Source: Anaerolineaceae bacterium (GTDB lineage: Bacteria; Chloroflexota; Anaerolineae; Anaerolineales; Anaerolineaceae). From it: a stretch of DNA of 22,812 nucleotides. Below the pieces are notes generated by a model. The model was not told where the DNA came from. It made no database searches and was given only the letters and a program-made list of their open reading frames with translations. Location: positions 1 through 22,812 of the forward strand of contig PMIV01000155.1 of assembly GCA_003158355.1 (NCBI GenBank). The letters run 5' to 3'. Positions 3,059-16,626 of this stretch are shown here, in pieces. Each line of letters starts with the position of its first letter. Position 1 is the stretch's first letter. A program made the position numbers and the translations under genes.

Positions 3059-3129
3059 GTTCACGTAGCCAAGTGGCAAGGCAACGGTCTGCAAAACCGT
3101 GACCGCGGGTTCGAGTCTCGCCGTGAACT
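3059..3129 (+). tRNA. tRNA-Cys (anticodon GCA)
   Basis: A full cloverleaf of 71 nt can be drawn. The acceptor stem is gttcacg/cgtgaac, the D stem gcc/ggc, the anticodon stem acggt/accgt with loop ctgcaaa (GCA anticodon), and the T stem gcggg/ctcgc with loop ttcgagt. Base 73 is U, the usual cysteine identity element. The CCA end is not encoded (the next bases are ct) and must be added after transcription. It lies between metY and a pair of CxxC proteins. Confidence 0.96.
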
Positions 3130-3164
3130 CTGGGACTAAAAATAAAAAAATTGGAGGTATAGAA

Positions 3165-3653
3165 ATGTCGGATTCGTTGAAACAACTTGATCATGCACCT
3201 CTTGGCACTAATCAGGCCACAATTATTGTTTTATTGCTTGTCGCATTTGTTTTAAACCTTCCCTGGTTGGTCACCCTGGTAGCGTTGGCAATGATTCTGG
3301 GAACCGTATTCAAACGGCCAGGGTTCGGTTTCTTGTATACGGCGCTGTTGAAGAAGTGGGGTTGGGTGAAACTTGATGTTTTTCCGGATAATCCAGAACC
3401 TCATCGGTTCGCGCAGGGGTTTGGCGGTGTGGTTGCTGCCGGATCGGCAGTCGCGCTCTGGTTGGGTGCTTCCACTTTGGGTTGGATATTAACCTGGGTG
3501 GTGATTTTACTCGCATCAGTCAATTTATTTCTCGGTTTTTGCGCTGGCTGCGCGGTCTATTATTGGCTTAATGCGCTAAAAGTACCTGGATTCAAGAAAT
3601 CTGCTCCCAGTGGAGTGTTCCCGGGGCTGCGGCCGAAAAAGAAGCTGGCATAA
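3165..3653 (+). CDS. DUF4395 membrane protein
   Basis: A 162-residue inner-membrane protein of the DUF4395 family, whose function is not established. Hydrophobic segments lie at about 18-49 (probably two helices), 86-101 and 105-135. The family signature NPEPHRFAQGFGG is at 76-88, and a CxxC pair (Cys126, Cys129, in GFCAGCAVYYW) sits in the last membrane segment. The ATG at 3165 has a strong ggaggt site. Upstream in-frame starts lie inside the tRNA and are rejected. The gene begins 35 bases after the tRNA and its stop overlaps the start of a thioredoxin gene, so the two are probably translated together. Pairing with a thioredoxin and the CxxC suggest a redox or sulfur-relay role, which is inference. 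Confidence 0.88.
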   Translation: MSDSLKQLDHAPLGTNQATIIVLLLVAFVLNLPWLVTLVALAMILGTVFKRPGFGFLYTALLKKWGWVKLDVFPDNPEPHRFAQGFGGVVAAGSAVALWLGASTLGWILTWVVILLASVNLFLGFCAGCAVYYWLNALKVPGFKKSAPSGVFPGLRPKKKLA

Positions 3654-4060
3654 TGTCGGATTCGATCATTCGTCTGGTTTTCAGTATTGGTTTGATCTTT
3701 CTGGGGTGGGTGGCTTATCGGTTGGTGAGATCGATCTCTTTACATATAGCCGGAAAGAACAGTCTAAATTTGGCTGGAACAAATCGTGCTTCCAAAACCA
3801 TTGTTTACTTTACAACGCCGGATTGTGTCGCGTGTATTTCAGCGCAAAAGCCGGCGTTGAATCAACTCAAAGAAACGCTGGGAAATGAATTGGAAGTAAT
3901 CGAGATCAATGCTTACGAGAAACCAGAACTAGCCAAGGAATGGGGTGTGATGAGTGTACCCACCACATTTATTCTGGATGCAAACGGTGTTCCATTTACA
4001 GTGAATTATGGGGTGACACCTTTTAAGAAACTGTTGGAACAAATAAACCGTTCAAGGTAA
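3653..4060 (+). CDS. membrane-anchored thioredoxin-like protein
   Basis: A 135-residue protein with one N-terminal hydrophobic segment (about 6-22), probably a membrane anchor, then a thioredoxin fold. The active site is TTPDCVAC (Cys58, Cys61), and the conserved cis-proline is in SVPTTFILD (Pro103). The CVAC centre differs from the usual CGPC, so its redox potential may differ. The start shares one base with the stop of the DUF4395 gene (taatg), which implies translational coupling. The first four residues (MSDS) and their 12 bases are the same as in the DUF4395 gene. It probably transfers electrons to or from that partner. I would not give it a trxA symbol. Confidence 0.87.
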   Translation: MSDSIIRLVFSIGLIFLGWVAYRLVRSISLHIAGKNSLNLAGTNRASKTIVYFTTPDCVACISAQKPALNQLKETLGNELEVIEINAYEKPELAKEWGVMSVPTTFILDANGVPFTVNYGVTPFKKLLEQINRSR

Positions 4061-4905: not shown

Positions 4906-5592
4906 CTATTGGCCGTAATAGGCATTTTTTCCGTGTTTGCGGAGAAAATGTTTGTCGAGAAGCTCTTTCTGCATAGGAGAAAGCTTTGAGTTCAAAGTGA
5001 GAGCATGATATTGCATGAAAGCAACTTCTTCCAACACAACTGCTGCTTCAACTGCTTTCTTTGGAGTTTTGCCCCAGCAAAAAGGACCATGACTTTGTAC
5101 AAGAACGGCAGGAATTGCATCGGGATCAATATCTTTGTAGGTCTCGATAATCACTGTGCCAGTTTCTTTCTCGTAATCTCCGGCGATCTCTGACGGAGTC
5201 AACATTCGCGTGCATGGAATTGCACCATAGAAATGGTCTGCGTGCGTTGTCCCTGTTGGAATGATCGACTTCCCGGCCTGGGCAAAACTAGTGGCCCAAC
5301 GGCTGTGAGTGTGCACAATACCGCCAATGTTTGGAAATGCCTTGTACAACTCAACATGTGTGGGTGTATCAGAGGATGGCTTCAATTTGCCCTCGATGAC
5401 TTTGCCATCGAGATCGACAATTACCATATCGTCTTTGGTCATTTCCTCATAACCAACCCCTGAGGGTTTGATCGCAACCAAACCGCTGGCCCGATCGATC
5501 CCCGATACGTTGCCCCAGGTAAAGGTAACCAGACCATATTTGGGCAGAAGCAGGTTAGCCTCCAACACTTGTTGTTTCAGTAATTCCAGCAT
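4906..5592 (-). CDS. araD: L-ribulose-5-phosphate 4-epimerase
   Basis: A class II aldolase-fold enzyme that epimerises L-ribulose-5-phosphate to D-xylulose-5-phosphate, the last step of arabinose catabolism before the pentose phosphate or phosphoketolase routes. At 228 residues it matches the family (E. coli 231). The zinc ligands are visible as His94 and His96 in VHTHS and His168 in QSHGP. Asp119 in THADHFYG matches the catalytic aspartate. The C terminus AYYGQ is also typical. The start lies one base after the stop of araA, and its weak ribosome site (ggga) is inside araA, which implies coupled translation. It is the last gene of the operon. Confidence 0.96.
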
Positions 5593-5593
5593 A

Positions 5594-7072
5594 TTATCCC
5601 AGCTTCCAGAGCAAGTCGTTAACCCGGAGTTCTTTGATCAGTTCTTCTGTAGTGGTTTTCTCAGTGAGATGGACATATTCGATATCCATCATTACAGCCC
5701 AATCTTGAAGCATTTCCGGGGTGGCGTCATAGGTCAATACCGTGTGGTGAGCTCCACCGCAGGTGATCCACTGGCGGATGCCTTCACGGAGATTCGGTTT
5801 AATCTTCCACATTACCCTGGCGACAGGTAAATTCGGCATTTCCATGATTGGTTTGACGCATTCGACGTCTTGAACGATCAAGCGCAGACGTCCACCCATA
5901 TCGATCAGAGAGATCACCACCGCTTCACCGGCATGACCTTCGAAAACAAGGCGAGCCGGCGCTTCTTTACCGCCAATTCCAAGCGGGTGAACCTCGATGT
6001 GGGGTTTTGCGGCTGCGATGGATGGACAAACCTCAAGCATATGGGCACCCAAAGAGTATTCGTTATTCTTCTCATAATGATAGGTGTAGTCTTCCATGAA
6101 AGAACTGCCGCCCTTAAGACCCTGGGTCATGGCTTTGATAATATGGGTCATCGCGCCAGTTTTCCAATCGCCTTCAGCGCCGTATCCATATCCCTTCGCC
6201 ATCAAATTCTGAGAAGCAATGCCGGGAAGTTCTTCCATCCCCCAAAGATCCTGGAAGGTATTGCTGTAAGCATCCGCGTGTTCTCTCTTGAGGATGCGTT
6301 CCATGGCAATTTCTTCCTTGGCCTGGTAATAAACCGCATGTAGATCTTCAGTCTTTAATTCATATGCGGCCTTGTATTCTTTGACTTTTTCTTCAGCTTC
6401 TTTATCCGTGACTTTACTAATCTCATTTACAAGTTCACCCACCGGCCAGGTATTGACCTGCCAGCCCAATTTGATCTGCACTTCAACCTTGTCACCTTCA
6501 GTCACAGCTACTTCGCGCATGTTATCGCCAAAGCGAACAACGGATAAATTTTGGCTGACCTTATACCCGACTGCAGCCCGCATCCATTCGCCAAGTGACT
6601 TAATCGCACTTTCATCTTTCCAATGGCCAACGATCACTTTCCGGTGCAAACGCATTCTGGCTCCAATGAAGCCATGTTCGCGATCTCCATGAGCTGCCTG
6701 ATTGAGATTCATGAAATCCATATCAATCTCTTCGTTGGGAATATCGTGATGGTATTGGGTAGCGAAATGGCAATACGGCTTCTGTAATAGAGCAAGCCCA
6801 TTGATCCACATCTTCGAGGGAGAAAAAGTGTGGCACCAAGCGACCAGACCGACACATTTATCGTCAAAGTTCGCATCCTTAATGATCTTGGTGACTTCCT
6901 CATTCGATTTGATCGTGCCTTTATAGATAAATTTGCACGGAATGTTTTCGTTCGCGTTAATATATGTTGCGATTTCCTGGCCGCGTTTTGCCACGGTTTC
7001 AAGAACTTCAGATCCATATAATAATTGCGAACCAACTACAAACCAGACTTCTTGCTCTTTTAGATTTACCAT
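5594..7072 (-). CDS. araA: L-arabinose isomerase
   Basis: Converts L-arabinose to L-ribulose in the cytoplasm with a divalent metal. It is 492 residues long, against about 500 for E. coli AraA. The expected metal ligands are present: Glu300 in GYGAEGDWK, Glu327 in [10 protein letters not shown], His344 in GAHMLEVCP, and His442/443 in GGAHHTVL. The N-terminal [12 protein letters not shown] and the segment [10 protein letters not shown] are also family hallmarks. The ATG at 7072 has a gtggag ribosome site. It lies between the kinase and araD in one operon and gives the best evidence that the whole locus handles arabinose. Confidence 0.97.
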
Positions 7073-7119: not shown

Positions 7120-8727
7120 TTACTTGAAAGCATCCACAGCCGCTCTTTCAATAACCAATCCTTTTTTGTAGCGGTCCATAAATGCAATAAACCCTTCAAC
7201 ATCTTTTTTGTCGGGCGAAATTGTCGACCCGGCGTTACCGGCGAAAACATTTTTGGAAAGATAAACTTCCAAAGGTTCGTTTTCTTTCTTATTGAGCATG
7301 TACGAAGCTAATAATGCGATCCCCCAGGGGCCGCCTTCGCTGGCAGTATCCATAACAGAAACGGGGACGTTCATTGCTGCTGCCATAACTTTTTGGCCCA
7401 CTCCCTTGGTTTTGAAAAAACCACCGTGCCCAAGGACTTGATCTACTTTAACGTGTTCTTGTTCAAAGAGAATATCCAGACCAATTTTCAGCGCGCCAAG
7501 CGCTGAAAATAGATGAACTCGCATGAAATTCGCGAGAGTGAAATGGCTTTCAGGTGTGCGGACAAACAAAGGACGGCCTTCTTCAAAATGAGTGATATGC
7601 TCACCTGAAAAATAATTATAGGAGAGGAGATCACCGCAATCTGCCTCGCCTTCGAGTGCTTTTTGGTATAGCATTTCAAATAATTTTGATTGATCAATCT
7701 CGACACCAAGTACACCAGTAAATTCACGGAACAAGCCGACCCAGGCATTGAGATCAGTTGTACAGTTGTTGCAATGAACCATGGCAACATGCTTGCCTGT
7801 GGGCGTGGTCACCATATCGATCTCGGGATAAACTTTGGATAATGGTTTCTCCAAAACGATCATGGCGAAGACAGAGGTCCCGGCAGAAACATTGCCAGTA
7901 CGCACTGCAACGCTGTTAGTCGCGACCATACCAGTGCCGGCATCCCCCTCAGGTGGGCATAAGGGAATTGCTGGGCGCAGATTACCAGTAGGATCAAGCA
8001 ATTTAGCACCATCTTCAGTGAGAACACCGGCTGAATCACCAGCTAAAAGGACTTCGGGTAAGATCTCTTGAAGCTTCCATGGATAGTTTTCTGATTTTAT
8101 TTTTTGGTTGAAAAGATCAATTTTATGAGCATCGTAACTGTTGGTTTTACTGTCGATTGGGAACATTCCTGATGCATCGCCAATACCCAAGACTTTATGA
8201 CCGGTTAGCTTCCAATGGACATAACCTGCCAGCGTAGTCAGGAACTTGATATCTTTAACATGGGGCTCTTTGTTTAAAATTGCTTGATAAAGGTGAGCAA
8301 TGCTCCAGCGCTGTGGAATATTGAATTGAAAAAGGTTGGTTAGATCCATCGAGGCTTGTTCGGTCATGGTATTCCGCCATGTGCGGAAGGGTACAAGTAA
8401 ATTGTCATTTTTGTCGAATGGCAGGTACCCGTGCATCATAGCGCTGAATCCGATAGAACCAATCGTCTTGAGCGGGATATTGTATTTTTCAAGAACTTCA
8501 GCGCTCAGCTTTTGGTAACTATCCTGCAGGCCTTTCCAAACATCCTCAAGACTGTATGTCCAGATGCCATTTTCGTATTGATTTTCCCAATCATGGCTAC
8601 CCGATGCCAGCAGCGTATGGTCTTCACCGATCAGAACTGCTTTGATACGAGTTGAACCGAACTCAATGCCTAAAGTGGTTTTTCCGCTTTCGATTTCTCT
8701 TTTGATTTCGTTATGATCTATATTCAT
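7120..8727 (-). CDS. araB: L-ribulokinase, FGGY family (xylulokinase-like type)
   Basis: An ATP-dependent sugar kinase of 535 residues. The N-terminal phosphate motif is [10 protein letters not shown] (20-29), with Glu where most FGGY kinases have Asp. Next come [13 protein letters not shown] (93-105), the probable catalytic base region [10 protein letters not shown] with Asp262, the ATP-site segment GNVSAGTS (278-285), and near the C terminus [10 protein letters not shown] and SEGGPWGIA. It resembles the xylulokinase-like kinases found in araBDA clusters of Clostridia and Bacteroidetes rather than E. coli AraB. Function is therefore assigned from context with araA and araD, and a general pentulokinase remains possible. 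The ATG at 8727 has a ggag site 7 bases upstream. Confidence 0.85.
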
Positions 8728-8999
8728 GCTCAGACTCCATAAAGGTTGTAATTATTCATCTACTGCTTACTTTTTCAACGGGTAATGACGTATAGTATGT
8801 TTTATTACCGAGCATGTTTCCGGGTATTTTACGATTCAAGTAAGTAATCCGATTGAACTGTAATTCTCTTTTTGTTCAAGTCTTTCTTTCACCTGTGTAC
8901 TATTTTTACAATTTAGGTGAAAGAAAGACTTTATTTGTTCTAGAACCTTTTTGCATCAAACAACTCTTGCGAAGTCCTTGTTTGAGTAGAGCATTTCTA
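8728..8999 (-). other. 272-bp gap between lipoprotein and kinase genes
   Basis: There is no coding potential here. The right half holds the large inverted repeat listed separately. Near the kinase, a weak promoter-like pair can be drawn on the - strand: ttgaaa (8773-8778) and taatta (8749-8754), 18 bases apart. This is low confidence because the transcript would begin almost at the ribosome site. A loose pair of ggtaat/attacc half sites lies at 8781-8786 and 8804-8809. They recall half of the operator upstream of the LacI gene but do not form the same palindrome. Confidence 0.4.
8871..8940. repeat. 17-bp perfect inverted repeat with flanking 7-bp direct repeats
   Basis: The arms aagtctttctttcacct (8878-8894) and aggtgaaagaaagactt (8915-8931) are perfect complements around a 20-base AT-rich loop. 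The 54-bp unit is bracketed by tttgttc on both sides (8871-8877 and 8934-8940). It lies inside the arabinose operon. On the - strand no T run follows, so it is not a textbook terminator for that direction. Flanking direct repeats are what a small inserted element would leave, but chance is possible in such AT-rich DNA. Confidence 0.8.
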
Positions 9000-9917
9000 T
9001 TATTTATCGGAAATATCGATTACATGGCTAATGAATAGCCGTTGTTGTTTTGATTCAACACTCACTAATAAATATAAACCGGTGGCATCGCTTGGAACAG
9101 TTACCGTCGTGGTCCAATCAGACACACCGTTCACTGGTGTAATTGGAGCATCAGCCAGATGAGGACTCTCATAAAAGCCGTAAATAATGCCTTTAGAATC
9201 GATCACTGGTGGTTTACCAATATGAACGTATGTTGGCGATTGACTTGCATTTGAGTTTTCCCAAGACAACTCCAATCCAGTATCCGTACGTTTCACATCT
9301 TTAAGTGATAGTTTGCATTGGTTGATCGCTTCTATTGCTACGTTGGATTTCTCAATGAGACCATCAACCTTTTGCGCAACGGGATACTGCAGGTCTGTGA
9401 CTACCTTATCAAGGTTCAAATCAAAATCAGCATTAGTTGATTTTGGCGTGACATAATAATTGAAATTACCCGTCGAATAGGAGTAGTTGATCTTTAGCTT
9501 TGAGCCAGCTTCAGCTTTAGCTCCCTTGCATTCGACATACAAAAGCTGAGTCTCAGGTTTCATTTTTGTGCCTGCGGTATATCCACTCATTTGAAAACCT
9601 GGAGCTAGATAATTACCACCGGTACCAACAAAAACAGTCTCACAATTTGTGGTTTTACCATCACTGGTTGTAAGTACTGCAGGTTTGTCTGCTAATGCTT
9701 GCATAACGCTCCAATCAGCAGTCTCATTCCGTATCGTAATATCGACGTGTAAATCACCAGAGTCGGAAGCGCCTACCTTTGTAACGAAGGCGCTCCATCC
9801 CTTGGATACAGTAGATGTTGGAGTCGAAACCGACTCTGGAGTGACGATATATGCGCAGGCATTAAGCAATAATCCAATCAGTAAAATCAGGGCTACTTTC
9901 TTGCTCGTTTTTGTCAT
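9000..9917 (-). CDS. putative lipoprotein, unknown function
   Basis: I do not recognise a family with confidence. The 305-residue product begins with a lysine-rich start, a hydrophobic segment and a lipobox (LLNAC, Cys21), so it should be a lipoprotein outside the membrane. The rest looks like two beta-rich domains: residues about 35-160, which include DLHVDITIRNET and recall DUF4352-like immunoglobulin-type modules, and about 190-305, which ends in TVTVPSDATGLYLLVSVES. The ATG at 9917 has a clear aaaggag site, and an in-frame TTG further upstream is rejected. It sits between the second permease and the kinase in the same direction, so it is probably an accessory part of sugar uptake or sensing. 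That role is inference. Confidence 0.8.
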   Translation of the reverse strand: MTKTSKKVALILLIGLLLNACAYIVTPESVSTPTSTVSKGWSAFVTKVGASDSGDLHVDITIRNETADWSVMQALADKPAVLTTSDGKTTNCETVFVGTGGNYLAPGFQMSGYTAGTKMKPETQLLYVECKGAKAEAGSKLKINYSYSTGNFNYYVTPKSTNADFDLNLDKVVTDLQYPVAQKVDGLIEKSNVAIEAINQCKLSLKDVKRTDTGLELSWENSNASQSPTYVHIGKPPVIDSKGIIYGFYESPHLADAPITPVNGVSDWTTTVTVPSDATGLYLLVSVESKQQRLFISHVIDISDK

Positions 9918-9973
9918 TCTTGCTCCTTTAATCAAATCTAACCAATTCCCGGTGAAGTTGGGACCTTTTGAGA

Positions 9974-11569
9974 TTACTTGCTGAAGACGGGAACAAGTTG
10001 TGTAATTTCACCACTCATTATCCAATATTCTGAAGGAGCATCAGTGCCGCCGTCAACTGCTTCAACAGTCTTGGACTTACCTTGATAAACAACTGTTGTA
10101 TTGTAGTGGAAACACTGATCACAAGGCTTGTGATATGTGGAATACATATTGTCTGTGAACCACTCCATATTATTTATATCAGTAAGAACTTTATTGATTT
10201 GGTCGGGCGTAACCGTTTTTTCTTTCTTTTCGGTACCGTTATCCGATACGATTCGTCCATCGGGGTACAGTGCGGATAATTCATCGATACAGTCCATACC
10301 GCCATTACGCTCATAGGTAATAACGGCTCCATCTGCAATGAATTGTTTAGCCAAATCATTTCTAAAAGGTTTCAACTGGCAGTTTGTTACTGTCGGGGTG
10401 GGGTTTGCTGCTGCTGTATTTTTTGCATTTTTATCTACAAAATAGAAGATCAAAGAAGATGCAATGATCACGACTGCAGCTATACCTCCGTATAAAGCAG
10501 TTTTCTTTTTTCTGGCTGCTGCATCGGAATCGGTAAGCTTAATTGGCGAGATCTTTTTAGCGTTAATATTAACCAGAAGACTTTGAATTCCAATGAAAGC
10601 CAAGGTCAAAACGCCAATTGCAATACTCGTCCACCAGGAACTTAATTTGCCATTGAATTGGATGATCATTTGAATCAAGGCAGTTGTTAGAACTCCAAAA
10701 AGAGTACCAAACATATAGCCTTCGCCGCCAGTTAACATTGTGCCGCCGATGACTACAGCTGCTATTACGGTCATTTCAAAACCAGTTGCATGAGAACCAT
10801 GACCTGATCCAACATAAATGCTGTAGGCAATGCCTGCCAATGCTGAGCAAAGGCCGTTCACCGTATAAACTAAAATTTTTGTACGATCAACTGGTAACCC
10901 CATTAATCTGGCAGATTGTTCATTCGCTCCACCATTCCCGCCAATGGCGTAAATGGTTCTACCAAATTTTGTAAAGTGAGCAACAAATAAGGCAATTATA
11001 AATATTGTCATGCTCAACACTACAAGAGGTGTAATATAGGCACCTTTTTTGGTGACTACATCGGCCAGCCCAGGAATCAAAATTTTTGTTCCTGCCAGTA
11101 ATTTATAAAGCGGATCGTAAATACGAATCTCGCTATCGCTGATGATATAGCACATACCACGGGCAAACCACATTCCTGCAATGGTTGCGATCCAGGGATG
11201 TACTTTTAGGTAAGCAATAAATGTCCCCATTACTGCCCCAAGAGTCATTCCCATAATAAGCATGAGTCCAAAAACTATCCAGGGATTTACACCAGCTTGT
11301 AACAATGCTGCTGAAGCTGTAGCAGTCAGAGCCACCACACCACTGACTGATAGGTCAATTCCCCCGGTAAACACAACAAAGGTTTCTCCAATCGCGCTAA
11401 TTAGCAAGAATGGGGTGATGATAAAAAGGGTAAAGAAAGCTTGCGGATCACGCATTCCTGCATAGGAAAATGCGCCAAAAGAATACGCAATAATGAATAG
11501 GAAGATAGTTGCTGCAAGTGGGAGAAACTTGCGATTTTTTGAAATAGCTAAACCAAAACGTGTCATCAT
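9974..11569 (-). CDS. ABC sugar permease (YjfF/RbsC type) with extra C-terminal domain
   Basis: The first 335 or so residues are a normal membrane permease of the ribose/galactofuranose class, with the family motifs GGIDLSVSG (69-77), AIGGNGGANEQSARLMGL (208-225) and VIGGTMLTGGEGYMFGT (273-289). Usual family members stop near residue 330. Here the frame runs on to 531: a charged stretch, one more helix (about 358-378), a TPTPT linker, and a domain of about 135 residues with four cysteines (397, 427, 483, 486; the last two as CDQC). That domain should face outwards. Its ITYERNGGMDC and YPDGRI pieces recall small emfourin/DUF6438-like modules, from memory only. The start overlaps the previous permease by 4 bases (atga), with a ggaggt site. 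Confidence 0.88.
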   Translation of the reverse strand: MMTRFGLAISKNRKFLPLAATIFLFIIAYSFGAFSYAGMRDPQAFFTLFIITPFLLISAIGETFVVFTGGIDLSVSGVVALTATASAALLQAGVNPWIVFGLMLIMGMTLGAVMGTFIAYLKVHPWIATIAGMWFARGMCYIISDSEIRIYDPLYKLLAGTKILIPGLADVVTKKGAYITPLVVLSMTIFIIALFVAHFTKFGRTIYAIGGNGGANEQSARLMGLPVDRTKILVYTVNGLCSALAGIAYSIYVGSGHGSHATGFEMTVIAAVVIGGTMLTGGEGYMFGTLFGVLTTALIQMIIQFNGKLSSWWTSIAIGVLTLAFIGIQSLLVNINAKKISPIKLTDSDAAARKKKTALYGGIAAVVIIASSLIFYFVDKNAKNTAAANPTPTVTNCQLKPFRNDLAKQFIADGAVITYERNGGMDCIDELSALYPDGRIVSDNGTEKKEKTVTPDQINKVLTDINNMEWFTDNMYSTYHKPCDQCFHYNTTVVYQGKSKTVEAVDGGTDAPSEYWIMSGEITQLVPVFSK

Positions 11570-12657
11570 TCCTTTACCTCCTTTTGCTTATTTGTTCCAA
11601 AAATTTTCCGCAAGAAACCTTGAACCTGTTGAGAGTAGAGGATGATCACAATAACTACCACTAATGCTTTGACTGCAATAATCGCACTAGCCGGAACACC
11701 CAATGCAAGCGTTGATGTGGAAGTGGCCTGGATAACCAGTGCTCCGATCATGCTTGCCAGGAGTGAGAACCGCCCCCCATCCATTGATGTTCCCCCAATG
11801 ATGACTGCCAAAATGGCATCGAGTTCCATATAAAGGCCAATTTGATTCGCATCGGAGGTTCTAATACTCGAGCTAACAACCAAAGCAGCTACACCTGCAC
11901 AAAAACCACAGAAAACATATGTGAAGAGTTTTACCCGTTTTGCATTTATTCCTGCAAAGAAACTTGATCGAGAATTTGCACCTACAGCCTCGATAAACAA
12001 GCCAATAGATGTTTTGCGAGTTATCAACCAGGCAATTGCGAAAATAAAAGCTGCAATGTAAAGGGAAAATGGTAAGATGATCCAGCCGTTACCAATATAA
12101 GCATAGGTATCATTAAAGATAATGATTTTGATTGCATTGGTGATGAGTTGAGCAATACCACGCCCAGCAATCATCAAAATCAAGGTAGCGACCATAGGTT
12201 GGATCTTTCCATAAGTAACCAATACCCCGTTCCAGAGACCGCATAGGGAGGCAACTATAAGTGGAACTAAAATCACAAGCCATAAGGGGGTAAAACTGTA
12301 AGTCGAATTGCCAACCAGCGAGGAAATATCTTGACTTAGTTTTAATCCAATGATCGTTGGGTTGATAAGAATACAGGCTACAGAAGAAGCAATTGCCATT
12401 GTTGCGCCTACAGAGATATCAATACCGCCAGTGGCAATCACCAAAGTCATACCTATTGCCAATATCATAATTGGCACACTATTTCTCAATACATCAATGA
12501 AACTTCCATACAAGTGGCCTTGCTTCATTTCAAGTTTGAAAAAACCGGGAATGACTATAAGGTCAAAGAGCAGGATTATTGCTAAAGCAATTAATGGAAA
12601 GAATATCTTGCTTTCGACTAATTTTTTAAACCGAAAATTGGATAAAAATTTTTTCAT
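11566..12657 (-). CDS. ABC sugar permease (YtfT/RbsC type)
   Basis: A 363-residue multi-spanning membrane protein, the first of two permease subunits of a CUT2-class importer. The conserved ATGGIDISVGA motif is at about 75-85, and the EAA-like loop EAVGANSRSSFFAGIN precedes LDAILAVIIGGTSMDGGRFS. It most resembles YtfT of the E. coli galactofuranose importer (order ytfQ-ytfR-ytfT-yjfF), and gene order here is the same. It starts 2 bases after the ATPase stop and ends with a 4-base overlap into the second permease, so the subunits are probably made in balance. Arabinose as substrate is inferred from the araA and araD genes downstream. Confidence 0.92.
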   Translation of the reverse strand: MKKFLSNFRFKKLVESKIFFPLIALAIILLFDLIVIPGFFKLEMKQGHLYGSFIDVLRNSVPIMILAIGMTLVIATGGIDISVGATMAIASSVACILINPTIIGLKLSQDISSLVGNSTYSFTPLWLVILVPLIVASLCGLWNGVLVTYGKIQPMVATLILMIAGRGIAQLITNAIKIIIFNDTYAYIGNGWIILPFSLYIAAFIFAIAWLITRKTSIGLFIEAVGANSRSSFFAGINAKRVKLFTYVFCGFCAGVAALVVSSSIRTSDANQIGLYMELDAILAVIIGGTSMDGGRFSLLASMIGALVIQATSTSTLALGVPASAIIAVKALVVVIVIILYSQQVQGFLRKIFGTNKQKEVKE

Positions 12658-12659
12658 AA

Positions 12660-14177
12660 TTATTCGCTCCCTGCAATAGACTTCATAATTTGCTGTTCAG
12701 TCACATCACCGCTTAGTTCAGTAACTTTTTTGTGATCACGCAAGATTACGATTCTATGACTTGTACGTAAGACTTCTTCCAGTTCCGAAGAGATAAATAC
12801 ACAAGACATTCCTTCTTCGGCTAATGAAAGAACTAACTTCTGAATTTCTGCCTTGGCACCAATATCAATACCTCTTGTGGGTTCATCTAATATTAGCAAA
12901 CGTGGGTTTGTTGCCAACCACCGAGCTAAAATCACTTTCTGTTGATTGCCGCCGCTTAGATTTTTTACCAATTGATCTGGTGAAGGGGTTGAAATATTGA
13001 GGAGCTTGATATACTTATCTGCAATCGTATATTGTTCCTGCAGACGCAAATACTTGAACCAACCCAGGCTGGCTTGCATTGCCAGAATGATGTTTTCCCT
13101 TATAGTCAGGTCAGCAACAATACCTTCTTTTTTCCGATCTTCCGGGCAAAGGGCAATTGCTCGTTCAATAGAATCAATAGGTGTGAAATTCTTGACGACT
13201 TTTCCATCCATCGTCATTGTTCCGGAATCCGGTTTGGTAATGCCGAATAATAATTCAGCAATTTCAGTACGGCCAGAACCTAAAAGCCCCGCCAAACCAA
13301 CGACTTCACCGGAATGTAATTGGAGGTCAAATGGCTCAATAGAACCAGAATGGCCGATGCCTTCTAATTCGATCAATGGTTCGGATTTAATCATGTGACC
13401 GCTATCTGATTTCAGCTTTGTCATATCATCAAATTCGGTGATTGTTCGTCCGATCATTTTTGTGATCAATTCAAGTTTGGGGAGGGAAGCAGTTTTATAA
13501 GTTCCAACAAGTTTTCCGTTACGTAAGACGGTAATTTGATCTGAAATATCATAAACTTGATCCAAGAAATGGGTGATAAAGATGATCCCCATTCCCTCAT
13601 TTTTTAGTTTACGCATTACTCCAAATAATTGTGCAGTTTCATGTTGGGTTAAGCTGGATGTAGGTTCATCAAGGATTAAAACTTTGGCTGAAGATATAAC
13701 CAAAGCCCGTGCAATAGCAGTCATTTGTTGAATGGCCACTGAACAAGAACCTAAAACTTTTGTAACATCAATATCAATGTCCAATCCCAACATGGCTTTT
13801 TTTGCCTGAGCATTCATAGTATTCCAATCAATGCGTCCCCATTTCATTGGTTGACGACCGATCAGAATGTTCTCAGAAATGGTCAAGTTTGGGCAAAGGT
13901 TCACTTCCTGATAAACTGGGTTAATCCCCAGACTTTGAGCATGTAGGGGTGATTTAATGCTGACTTCAACGCCGTCTAAAGAAATGGTTCCTGAATCGGG
14001 ATGTTCAACTCCAGTTAAAACTTTAACCAAAGTTGATTTACCTGCCCCATTTTCTCCCACAAGGGCGTGAATTTCACCTTTATTCAAAGAAAAATCAACT
14101 CCTTGAAGGGCGTGAACTCCTGGAAACGATTTTACAATATCTTTCATTACAATTATAGATTTAGTCGATTCTGACAT
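12660..14177 (-). CDS. sugar ABC transporter ATP-binding protein (double ATPase)
   Basis: A 505-residue protein with two fused nucleotide-binding domains, as usual for CUT2 importers (RbsA, YtfR). The first half has Walker A GENGAGKST (41-49), the relaxed signature CSVAIQQM (145-152) and Walker B KVLILDEPT. The second half has the normally degenerate Walker A GLLGSGRTE, signature LSGGNQQK and Walker B RLLILDEPTRGID. I chose the ATG at 14177 because a gagg site lies 6 bases upstream. The ATG at 14189 lies immediately upstream of that gagg and has no site of its own. It follows the binding-protein gene after a stem-loop and is tightly linked to both permeases. Confidence 0.95.
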   Translation of the reverse strand: MSESTKSIIVMKDIVKSFPGVHALQGVDFSLNKGEIHALVGENGAGKSTLVKVLTGVEHPDSGTISLDGVEVSIKSPLHAQSLGINPVYQEVNLCPNLTISENILIGRQPMKWGRIDWNTMNAQAKKAMLGLDIDIDVTKVLGSCSVAIQQMTAIARALVISSAKVLILDEPTSSLTQHETAQLFGVMRKLKNEGMGIIFITHFLDQVYDISDQITVLRNGKLVGTYKTASLPKLELITKMIGRTITEFDDMTKLKSDSGHMIKSEPLIELEGIGHSGSIEPFDLQLHSGEVVGLAGLLGSGRTEIAELLFGITKPDSGTMTMDGKVVKNFTPIDSIERAIALCPEDRKKEGIVADLTIRENIILAMQASLGWFKYLRLQEQYTIADKYIKLLNISTPSPDQLVKNLSGGNQQKVILARWLATNPRLLILDEPTRGIDIGAKAEIQKLVLSLAEEGMSCVFISSELEEVLRTSHRIVILRDHKKVTELSGDVTEQQIMKSIAGSE

Positions 14178-14222
14178 GAGAAACCTCATTCTTTATAAGG
14201 CATGTTATTTCGCTTGGTTTGG

Positions 14223-14307: not shown

Positions 14308-15429
14308 TTAGTATTTACGAGTTGCTAAAATGGCTTTTAATGCATCAGCGCCTTGAGCTGCGAAGAACTGGCCTTCCTGTGAAGGAGTCCAGGTAGCAAC
14401 AGAGGTGTCACCATTCATAGCTTTGAGTGCTGCTTCATAGACCTGCGGAGCAAGCAGTGGATTGCATTCGATATCAGCATTCAATTCGCCAGAGATCAAA
14501 TATTTGAAACCATCAGCGGTGGCATCGAAACCAATAACTTTGATGTCTTTTCCGGGAACGAGACCAGCTTCTTTGATAGCCTGGATGGCGCCGATTGCTT
14601 CTTCATCATTGTGGGCCAATACACCCTGGATATCTTTGCTGTCTTTCAAGAAGGCTTCCATGACTGCTTTGGATTCAGGAACGCCCCAGTTACCAGTTTG
14701 GGTTGCGGTGATGGTAATACCACAATCGGTCATTTTTTCGCGGAAACCTTTTGCGCGATCGATAGCAGCAGACGCACCAACGGCACCTGAAATCTCAACA
14801 ACGTTCTTCTTGGTGCTGTCTTTCAGAAGGTCGCACATGGCTGCAGCGCCTTCATGACCTTCATTGATGAAGTCTGAACCGATGTAGGTGTAGTAGGTGG
14901 AGGGATCGGCATCAATACGGCGGTCTTCCAAAACTACGACTTTACCATTGGCTTTTGCTTCAGCTAAAACATCATCATAACCAGTCACATCAAGGGCTGC
15001 CATAACGATGACATTTACGGAAGGATCCTGGTTGAATTGATGGAAAGCAGACACCTGGTTCTCAAGTTTATTTTGGGAATCATAGAATTTCAGAGTTATG
15101 CCTTCTTGGGTTGCGGTATCTTTGAAGGAGGAGGTGTTCGCAGCGCGCCAGCCACTTTCAGAACCAGTTTGCAGGAAACCGACAGTCAAATCTTTATATG
15201 TGCAGTTTGGAGCGCATTTAGCCACAGGAATTACATAACCACCGGAGGTGGTTGGGACAGCAGGGGCTGCTGTGGTTGCTGCAACTGCGGTGGTTGCTAC
15301 AGCTGCGGGTGCAGTAGTGGCAGCGGCTTCGGTGGGTGCAGGGGTTGCAGCAGAAGCGCATGCGCTTAATGCCATAGTGAGGACTATTGCGATTACAAAA
15401 ATCTTAAAGATGCTCTTTTTGCTAATCAT
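14308..15429 (-). CDS. sugar ABC transporter substrate-binding lipoprotein (YtfQ-like)
   Basis: A 373-residue type I periplasmic-binding-fold protein. It starts with a signal sequence and lipobox LSAC (Cys24), then a low-complexity Ala/Thr/Pro linker up to about residue 62 that tethers it to the membrane. The mature part begins near LTVGFLQTGSESGWRAANT, which closely follows the start of E. coli YtfQ (galactofuranose/arabinose-class binding proteins). VLEDRRIDADP and GVLAHNDEEAIGAIQAIKEAG are also typical. The ATG at 15429 has an aggag site. It is the first transporter gene after the regulator. Arabinose is the likely ligand by context, but related sugars such as galactofuranose or arabino-oligosaccharides cannot be ruled out. 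Confidence 0.93.
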   Translation of the reverse strand: MISKKSIFKIFVIAIVLTMALSACASAATPAPTEAAATTAPAAVATTAVAATTAAPAVPTTSGGYVIPVAKCAPNCTYKDLTVGFLQTGSESGWRAANTSSFKDTATQEGITLKFYDSQNKLENQVSAFHQFNQDPSVNVIVMAALDVTGYDDVLAEAKANGKVVVLEDRRIDADPSTYYTYIGSDFINEGHEGAAAMCDLLKDSTKKNVVEISGAVGASAAIDRAKGFREKMTDCGITITATQTGNWGVPESKAVMEAFLKDSKDIQGVLAHNDEEAIGAIQAIKEAGLVPGKDIKVIGFDATADGFKYLISGELNADIECNPLLAPQVYEAALKAMNGDTSVATWTPSQEGQFFAAQGADALKAILATRKY

Positions 15430-15597: not shown

Positions 15598-16626
15598 TTA
15601 TGAACTTTTTCGAATGATCAGCTCAGGCTGAATCATGATATATTTTGGTTCATTGCCGATTTTTTCTTCCAGCTTCTGCTCAATTTGGGTAATCAATTCA
15701 GTAACTGCAACTTTGCCTAATTCTTCCTGATTTGGATTTACCGTTGATAAAGATGGAGTAAAAAATTCAGACTCAGGAATATCATCAAATCCGATCACAG
15801 AAATTTCTTGGGGTATCTTTTTACCAATCTCAAGAGCAGATTGAAAGATCCCTAATGCCATTTGATCGTTCCCAACAAGTATGGCATCCATTTCAGGATA
15901 TTTATTCATTAAATCGAGGAATGCAGTCTTTCCACTTTTAGACGACCAATTACCTTCACTCCACATTCTATCGGTTACTTGAACTCCGGTTTCAGATAGC
16001 ACTGTTTCCCAGCCTATTTTTCGCTGGCGAGATTCCCACCAATCTAATGGGCCTGTAATGTGGGCAATATTTTTTCTTCCATGCTGGATAAAGTACTCAG
16101 TGGCCGCTTTTGCGCCGTTGTAATTATCGGTGGTTACAATTGAGACATTATTCTGTTCTTCCATGGTCAGGAAAATGATCGGTATATCGATCAGCGGTAA
16201 AATGTCTTTTAACCAAAAGCGATTATCTTCAATTTCTGGGGCTGCCCAGATAATTCCGTCAACCTGATGGGATTTAAACCATTGCAGCAAAGGCATCACA
16301 TCGGTTGAATTTGAACTGGCCAATTCTTTAAGCAATAAACCATATCCAAGTTCTTCTGCTTTGCTGGTAATTCCGCTCAAAGTCCGTGAAGGACCAAAAA
16401 ATTTTAAACCAACAGTAACTACACCTAAGAGAAAACTTTTTTGTCTGCTTAGGCTCTGGGCAACTGCGTTAGGCTGGTAATTTAATTCAGCCATAATCCC
16501 TTTTACCCGTTTTCGAGTTTCATCTGAAACATCTTGTCTATTGTTAAGCACACGTGAAACAGTTTGCCTTGATACTCCTGCTTTTTCCGCGACATCATAG
16601 ATAGTATTTTTACTATTCTTGATCAA
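15598..16626 (-). CDS. LacI-family transcriptional regulator of the arabinose locus
   Basis: A 342-residue repressor. The N-terminal LacI helix-turn-helix is TIYDVAEKAGVSRQTVSRVLN (about residues 8-28), followed by the hinge motif NYQPNAVAQSL. The rest is a sugar-binding periplasmic-fold domain with family marks VDGIIWAAPE, DAILVGNDQMALG and ISVIGFDDIPES. The start is a TTG at 16626 with an aggaag ribosome site. No in-frame ATG exists before the DNA-binding domain. It lies first in the arabinose operon and directly downstream of two LacI-type palindromes, so it probably represses its own promoter and the operon until a sugar (arabinose or a relative) binds. The name AraR is avoided because the classical AraR is a GntR-LacI chimera. 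Confidence 0.93.
   Translation of the reverse strand: MIKNSKNTIYDVAEKAGVSRQTVSRVLNNRQDVSDETRKRVKGIMAELNYQPNAVAQSLSRQKSFLLGVVTVGLKFFGPSRTLSGITSKAEELGYGLLLKELASSNSTDVMPLLQWFKSHQVDGIIWAAPEIEDNRFWLKDILPLIDIPIIFLTMEEQNNVSIVTTDNYNGAKAATEYFIQHGRKNIAHITGPLDWWESRQRKIGWETVLSETGVQVTDRMWSEGNWSSKSGKTAFLDLMNKYPEMDAILVGNDQMALGIFQSALEIGKKIPQEISVIGFDDIPESEFFTPSLSTVNPNQEELGKVAVTELITQIEQKLEEKIGNEPKYIMIQPELIIRKSS

Follow-up and report, generated by a model that had tools for sequence, protein, structure and literature searches.

The window analysed here, that is, the whole stretch of 22,812 nucleotides (positions 1 to 22,812 of contig PMIV01000155.1 from the Anaerolineaceae bacterium assembly GCA_003158355.1), carries at 9974..11569 a gene whose 531-residue product, judging by its reading frame and homologues, is an ATP-binding cassette (ABC) sugar permease continued into an additional membrane helix and a four-cysteine domain. 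An earlier, sequence-only reading of this DNA gave no strand for the gene; it is the minus strand, on which the parts of the gene, its partner lipoprotein gene and the operon genes given below lie as well. The gene shares 4 bp with the permease gene upstream, and its frame is unbroken, with Cys397, 427, 483 and 486 all present as that reading had claimed. Residues 1-335 (10565..11569) constitute a YjfF/GafD-type permease recognised by Pfam BPD_transp_2, which is restricted to residues 47-324, and by NCBIfam NF008630, the galactofuranose permease YjfF (a model of 331 positions), which is the best model for the fused protein, albeit at 329.6 bits and thus below its cut-off of 363. GafABCD/YtfQRT-YjfF permeases normally end near residue 335. 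Here, this part is followed by a Lys/Arg-rich connector (residues 336-355; 10505..10564), predicted to be cytoplasmic from its count of lysines and arginines (K+R), an added transmembrane helix at approximately residues 356-382 (10424..10504), and the four-cysteine domain itself (residues 397-531; 9977..10381), which is supported by alignments and a structure model, is predicted to lie outside, and features C397, C427, C483 and C486, H480, and the motifs YERNGG and VDGGTDAP..YW. The helix, previously placed at about residues 358-378, agrees with a hydrophobic stretch at residues 356-382 by hydropathy and with a helix at 349-385 in the full-length structure model, whereas the linker cited as TPTPT actually reads NPTPTV. 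The domain was modelled with a pLDDT of 91.8, and in the full-length model, the permease part of which is of moderate confidence, it is well predicted past residue 400, the final residues excepted.

The fusion is not peculiar to the window. When residues 336-531 were used as a query, 208 proteins (among 998 candidates) matched at E <= 1e-3, and BPD_transp_2 was also found in all 120 of the matches listed, the window's own protein among them; the permease-domain fusion, which the sequence-only reading had left for collected homologues to decide, thus recurs across many assemblies and far beyond chance. All four cysteines are present in 107/107 aligned rows (the window and 106 others, each at least 500 aa long), and so are E420, R421, N422, G423, G424 and H480. 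When short proteins from the database are aligned too, which brings the depth to as many as 149 rows at a position, C427, C483 and C486 are still found in 149/149 rows and C397 in 135/135, with H480 at 145/149 and N422 at 146/149. Forty-three short database proteins carry the domain without the permease; among the 14 that were inspected, fragments are represented by P0122 and P0123, which start within the last permease helix, and P0130 and P0136, which start at internal methionines, and P0140 and P0159 might be domain genes in their own right. That two genes were joined by an artefact of assembly or frame might come to mind for a window stemming from a draft assembly of 292 contigs, yet the probability of this is vanishingly small, as the fusion is common to homologues of many assemblies and the fused rows form one clade, which together rule out a sequencing artefact or frameshift. 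The remark that no ATG lies between residues 303 and 424 also holds (methionines are found at 301 and 425, with none in between), although GTG/TTG codons are available at 321, 323, 367, 373, 399 and 406; a separate domain gene using such an alternative start was considered and rejected, given that the 107 full-length rows read as one protein.

In a tree of 66 permeases (a quick search, rooted with three distant rows having long branches), the 31 fused rows occupy one side of one branch with a Shimodaira-Hasegawa-like approximate likelihood ratio test support of 100, and the fused/unfused label needs a single change. Of 61 genomes (the window's own plus 60 relatives), six, counting the window's own, gave full-length fused matches, with a seventh (G053) broken by a contig end, and unfused relatives showing 47-57% identity to the permease part were found in G007, G017, G025, G028, G046 and G051. 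The fusion is seen in 3/16 genomes of the window's own genus, and its distribution is therefore patchy. A class-wide sample yielded a permease match at E <= 1e-50 in 33/396 genomes, six fused and 27 unfused, the identities being 62-66% for the fused (the window itself aside) and 41-61% for the unfused, where the 61% match is a contig-edge fragment spanning residues 63-332. The genome searches scored 8 or 5 first-look candidates per genome, and the absences hold at that sensitivity; each of the three class searches covered 396 genomes, and their agreement was judged from the recurring genomes with matches. Homologues ending at residue 335, which the sequence-only reading held would speak against the fusion, thus do exist, but as a separate, unfused set giving no sign of an error. 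Fused loci were also encountered in assemblies titled Cellulomonas (L080), Acidimicrobiales (L083) and Spirochaetales (L093): L083 is likely a case of mis-binning, because the tree pairs it closely with L079, a Chloroflexi locus from the same isolate series, and L093 may represent a transfer. Weak domain-profile matches in long open frames (442-652 aa) of G117, G168 and G144 could be further fusions.

The outward orientation of the domain, as assumed in the sequence-only reading, is well supported. Over the 107 rows, the mean K+R count is 7.3 at residues 336-357, before the added helix, versus 1.0 at 380-396, after it (the loop at 198-232 has 5.0), so that by the positive-inside rule residues 336-357 would be cytoplasmic and the domain would be outside. 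As, additionally, the free relatives of the domain start with lipoprotein signal peptides (those that were read, by eye), the domain probably faces outside.

Immediately downstream lies a gene for a 305-residue lipoprotein (9000..9917; ATG at 9917, with the open reading frame listing reaching to a TTG at 9935), which the sequence-only reading called an orphan, suspecting nevertheless that it might be linked to the domain. It turned out to be a conserved partner, encoded next at every fused locus examined, and three counts bear the link out. A homologue is the next downstream gene (open frames of at least 90 aa) at 29/29 fused loci of a contig scan, a few of which are near copies of each other. 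In a second locus set it is found next to the permease at 11/11 fused loci (several of them the same contigs as among the 29) versus 0/8 unfused ones (one of which, L070, ends 195 bp past the permease). With identical permeases removed, it is found at 31/31 fused rows (the window being entered by hand as fused with the lipoprotein) versus 0/35 unfused rows, 33 of which can be followed for 900 bp or more past the permease. Likewise, in the 396-genome class sample the full-length lipoprotein occurs in exactly the six genomes having the fused domain, and the 27 further genomes with a permease relative at E <= 1e-50 gave neither a strong domain match nor a full-length lipoprotein. At E <= 0.01, a profile search retrieved 1,890 relatives of the lipoprotein, of which the 120 listed are all unnamed or "hypothetical"; three cysteines, that of the lipobox and two more, never vary in 14 rows (alignment A3), and in a wider alignment of 32 rows the first is retained in 30 and each of the others in all 32. 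No Pfam family was reached by the lipoprotein, and PDB sequence searches with the domain and with the lipoprotein were fruitless. Partial lipoprotein matches only were found in G268 and G353; in the former (locus L063, 6400-8730), a lipoprotein remnant of 41 positions is separated by some 1.5 kb from a copy of the domain that is free and lipidated and has four cysteines besides the lipobox one, with a WD40 protein encoded in between, an arrangement that perhaps is a decayed relic of the system.

The domain does have relatives: it belongs with lipoproteins of the Emfourin (PF20242)/DUF6438 (PF20033) type, to which it is homologous through free lipoproteins. The domain itself is below Pfam detection, giving no Emfourin hit; Emfourin is absent among the families matched at E <= 10 by the 43 rows of the fused-domain alignment (A2), in a search whose filters drop most matches above 0.1, and DUF6438 was matched by 1/43 of these rows at E 0.05. 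The A2 profile does, however, find free lipoproteins, which in turn match Emfourin and DUF6438: 4/10 of the free relatives scanned exceed the Emfourin gathering score, and for DUF6438 they reach 29.4 bits versus a cut-off of 30. Conversely, a profile of 23 free relatives, themselves gathered with the A2 profile, finds 107/107 fused proteins and gives no hits in 107 shuffled controls. Widespread short lipoproteins of this group, having a YERSGG-like motif and CCDR or CxxC, were also observed across Anaerolineae genomes (L029-L051). Compared with Emfourin/DUF6438, the fused domain has two more conserved cysteines (C397 and C427), many transporter-specific residues, and its attachment to the permease by a helix. 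By alignment, C483 is kept in 22/23 free relatives and C486 in 8/23 (arginine, within a CCDR-like motif, takes its place in 13), while C397 is found in 2/23 and C427 in none; the retention of C483 and the near absence of C397 and C427 suggest two independent pairs, C397-C427 and C483-C486, that would be disulfide-bonded. The nearest free form, L028, which is outside the 23, has all four cysteines. Structurally, a match to the Mago nashi fold is clearly above the background over most of the domain at 11-13% identity, even though a PDB profile search with the domain (hits up to E 10) did not return Mago nashi and no Foldseek match of the whole model reached E <= 1e-3, the top rows being Mago nashi for the domain and HmuUV for the permease part. 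Mago nashi is a protein of the exon junction complex, and the likeness implies no shared function.

Upstream of the fused permease lie genes for a second, YtfT-like permease (11566..12657; 313.5 bits, below the cut-off of 535), a YtfR-like ABC ATPase with two nucleotide-binding stretches (12660..14189; 684 bits, below 850), a YtfQ/GafA-like, lipid-anchored sugar-binding protein (14308..15429; NF041827 at 239.8 bits, below 510, the anchor being read by eye), which matches the YtfQ-type PDB chains 6hyh, 6hbd and 6hb0 at E ~1e-60, and a LacI-type regulator (15598..16626; best NF007075, 278.3 bits, below 340). Downstream, past the lipoprotein gene, come a sugar kinase occupying the AraB position (7120..8727; no NCBIfam cut-off reached, best XylB with 106.5 of 380), the L-arabinose isomerase AraA (5594..7072; 727.6 bits, over 622), and the L-ribulose-5-phosphate 4-epimerase AraD (4906..5592; 393.7 bits, over 389.1). 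This is the gene set of GafABCD/YtfQRT-YjfF, in which a double ATPase is encoded along with a pair of BPD_transp_2 permeases and a binding protein of the YtfQ type, but all four importer proteins stay below the NCBIfam equivalog cut-offs (329.6/363, 313.5/535, 684/850 and 239.8/510 bits), and by these scores the importer is a diverged branch akin to GafABCD/YtfQRT-YjfF rather than an equivalog. For Shewanella GafABCD and E. coli YtfQ, the available part of the article by Drousiotis et al. describes no added helix, domain or lipoprotein (PMC10191376). L-arabinofuranose import is the likely predicted role, given the YtfQ-type binding protein, the ara genes in the operon, and the precedent of Shewanella GafA, which, per the same portion of that article, binds L-arabinofuranose, with araBAD linkage being reported there only for Clade II GafA systems (PMC10191376). 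At least one AraA, AraB or AraD homologue is found within the available stretch at 21/29 fused loci. Between the lipoprotein and kinase genes (8878-8931), there is an inverted repeat whose 17-bp arms match perfectly and are 20 nt apart, a possible terminator or mRNA hairpin that may part the importer genes from the ara genes; a promoter and terminator scan gave counts that were both below the shuffle means.

Resting on a fusion, its conservation, its single clade, a partner gene and an operon that are all established at the level of sequence, the following reading might be put forward, to which we would give even chances: in an L-arabinose importer of the GafABCD/YtfQRT-YjfF kind, the permease-borne helix and Mago-like, Emfourin-related domain form an outside docking surface. 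One permease would have gained the extra transmembrane helix and the cysteine-paired domain, most simply once in evolution; the helix would bring the domain to the outer face of an importer for L-arabinose, probably as L-arabinofuranose, where the domain would serve as a permanent docking surface at the importer mouth for the partner lipoprotein and/or the lipid-anchored binding protein, and such contact might help to keep the loaded binding protein in place or to hand it over. An outside docking module is favoured because of the strict gene pairing and the weaker signals of correlation, conservation and cysteines. Twenty-six positions are at least 95% conserved in the fused domains yet below 35% in the 23 free relatives, which is what a new interface demanded by the transporter context would produce; a Cys199/Cys236 pair of the binding protein is present in 28/29 fused-locus rows versus 0/6 unfused ones, so the binding protein changed along with the permease; and partial distance correlations over 25 loci, corrected for three other importer parts, are 0.29 for domain and lipoprotein (permutation p 0.034) and 0.34 for domain and binding protein (p 0.004). 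Several points weigh against this reading. The correlation test is weak, as the 25 loci are few and related, it points no less to the binding protein than to the lipoprotein, and the lipoprotein-binding protein correlation is not significant (0.105, p 0.12); unfused relatives manage without both domain and lipoprotein; and Emfourin, the closest family by sequence that has been characterised, is one of protease inhibitors rather than docks. As for the sugar, 8/29 fused loci show no ara gene in the available stretch (the contigs of L072, L078 and L099 end early), and the window's kinase reached no ribulokinase model.

The main rival to docking is protease inhibition, because emfourin is described as inhibiting protealysin and thermolysin (PMC9505478): the domain would be an inhibitor tethered to the importer, shielding it and its lipoproteins by an emfourin-like block of metalloproteases. 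The Serratia emfourin gene adjoins an M4 peptidase gene, according to the same source (PMC9505478), and M4 peptidases are found anywhere in 4/12 fused genomes versus 0/7 others, a slight lean from numbers too few to tell, but none was found in eight fused genomes, the window's own (84% complete) included; this explanation is unlikely. Similarly improbable is a sensor, in which domain and lipoprotein would bind free sugar or answer to the redox state outside and gate the importer: the (nearly) invariant polar and aromatic residues E420, R421, N422, H480, D506, Y515 and W516 could form a small-molecule pocket, and H480, C483 and C486 are neighbours in sequence, yet the cysteine pairs look structural and independent, given their differing retention in the free relatives, and no sugar-binding fold is among the structural matches listed. 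We infer that docking is to be preferred over sugar or redox sensing. That domain and lipoprotein act as spacers or anchors holding the importer beneath an S-layer or cell-wall layer is slightly less probable still; it would suit a 305-residue partner having no Pfam family and, in 1/14 members, a weak Ig-like match (Big_3_3, E 0.039), but the association was seen in this importer clade alone and is missing from unfused relatives of the same class, and no wall-binding Pfam family was hit.

ABC importers are usually described with fixed parts, namely permeases, an ATPase and a binding protein; the clade described here adds two parts on the outside, which co-occurred at all loci examined, and importers of the fused kind probably work with these extra, hitherto undescribed surface parts. 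ABC permeases fused to their own binding protein are known from the GlnPQ/OpuA type. Common to these and the present case is an extracytoplasmic domain covalently joined to the permease, but here the binding protein is a separate gene, the fused domain has no binding-protein Pfam hit, and its fold matches show Mago nashi rather than a substrate-binding fold. The fusion looks new, while the kind of importer is known and the domain family is known but poorly characterised; among the papers listed from an open-access library (for one query, 15 of the 19 found), none dealt with the permease-domain fusion or with a Mago/Emfourin link. Should the domain indeed dock the binding protein, it would open a direct way to study how, in bacteria of this phylum, a lipid-anchored binding protein reaches its importer, and the Emfourin/Mago link offers a first structural frame for the widespread unannotated Anaerolineae lipoproteins. 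A bolder version, in which the Mago-like domain and the dedicated lipoprotein form an obligatory outside subcomplex receiving the binding protein, and the domain family belongs to the Mago nashi fold as a branch found on bacterial surfaces, is improbable; if true, the core protein of the eukaryotic exon junction complex could have an ancestor in common with a large Chloroflexota surface-domain family. Elsewhere in the window, 3099-4060 encodes a small membrane protein directly followed by a thioredoxin-like protein, close to two methionine-synthesis-like genes (names given by eye).
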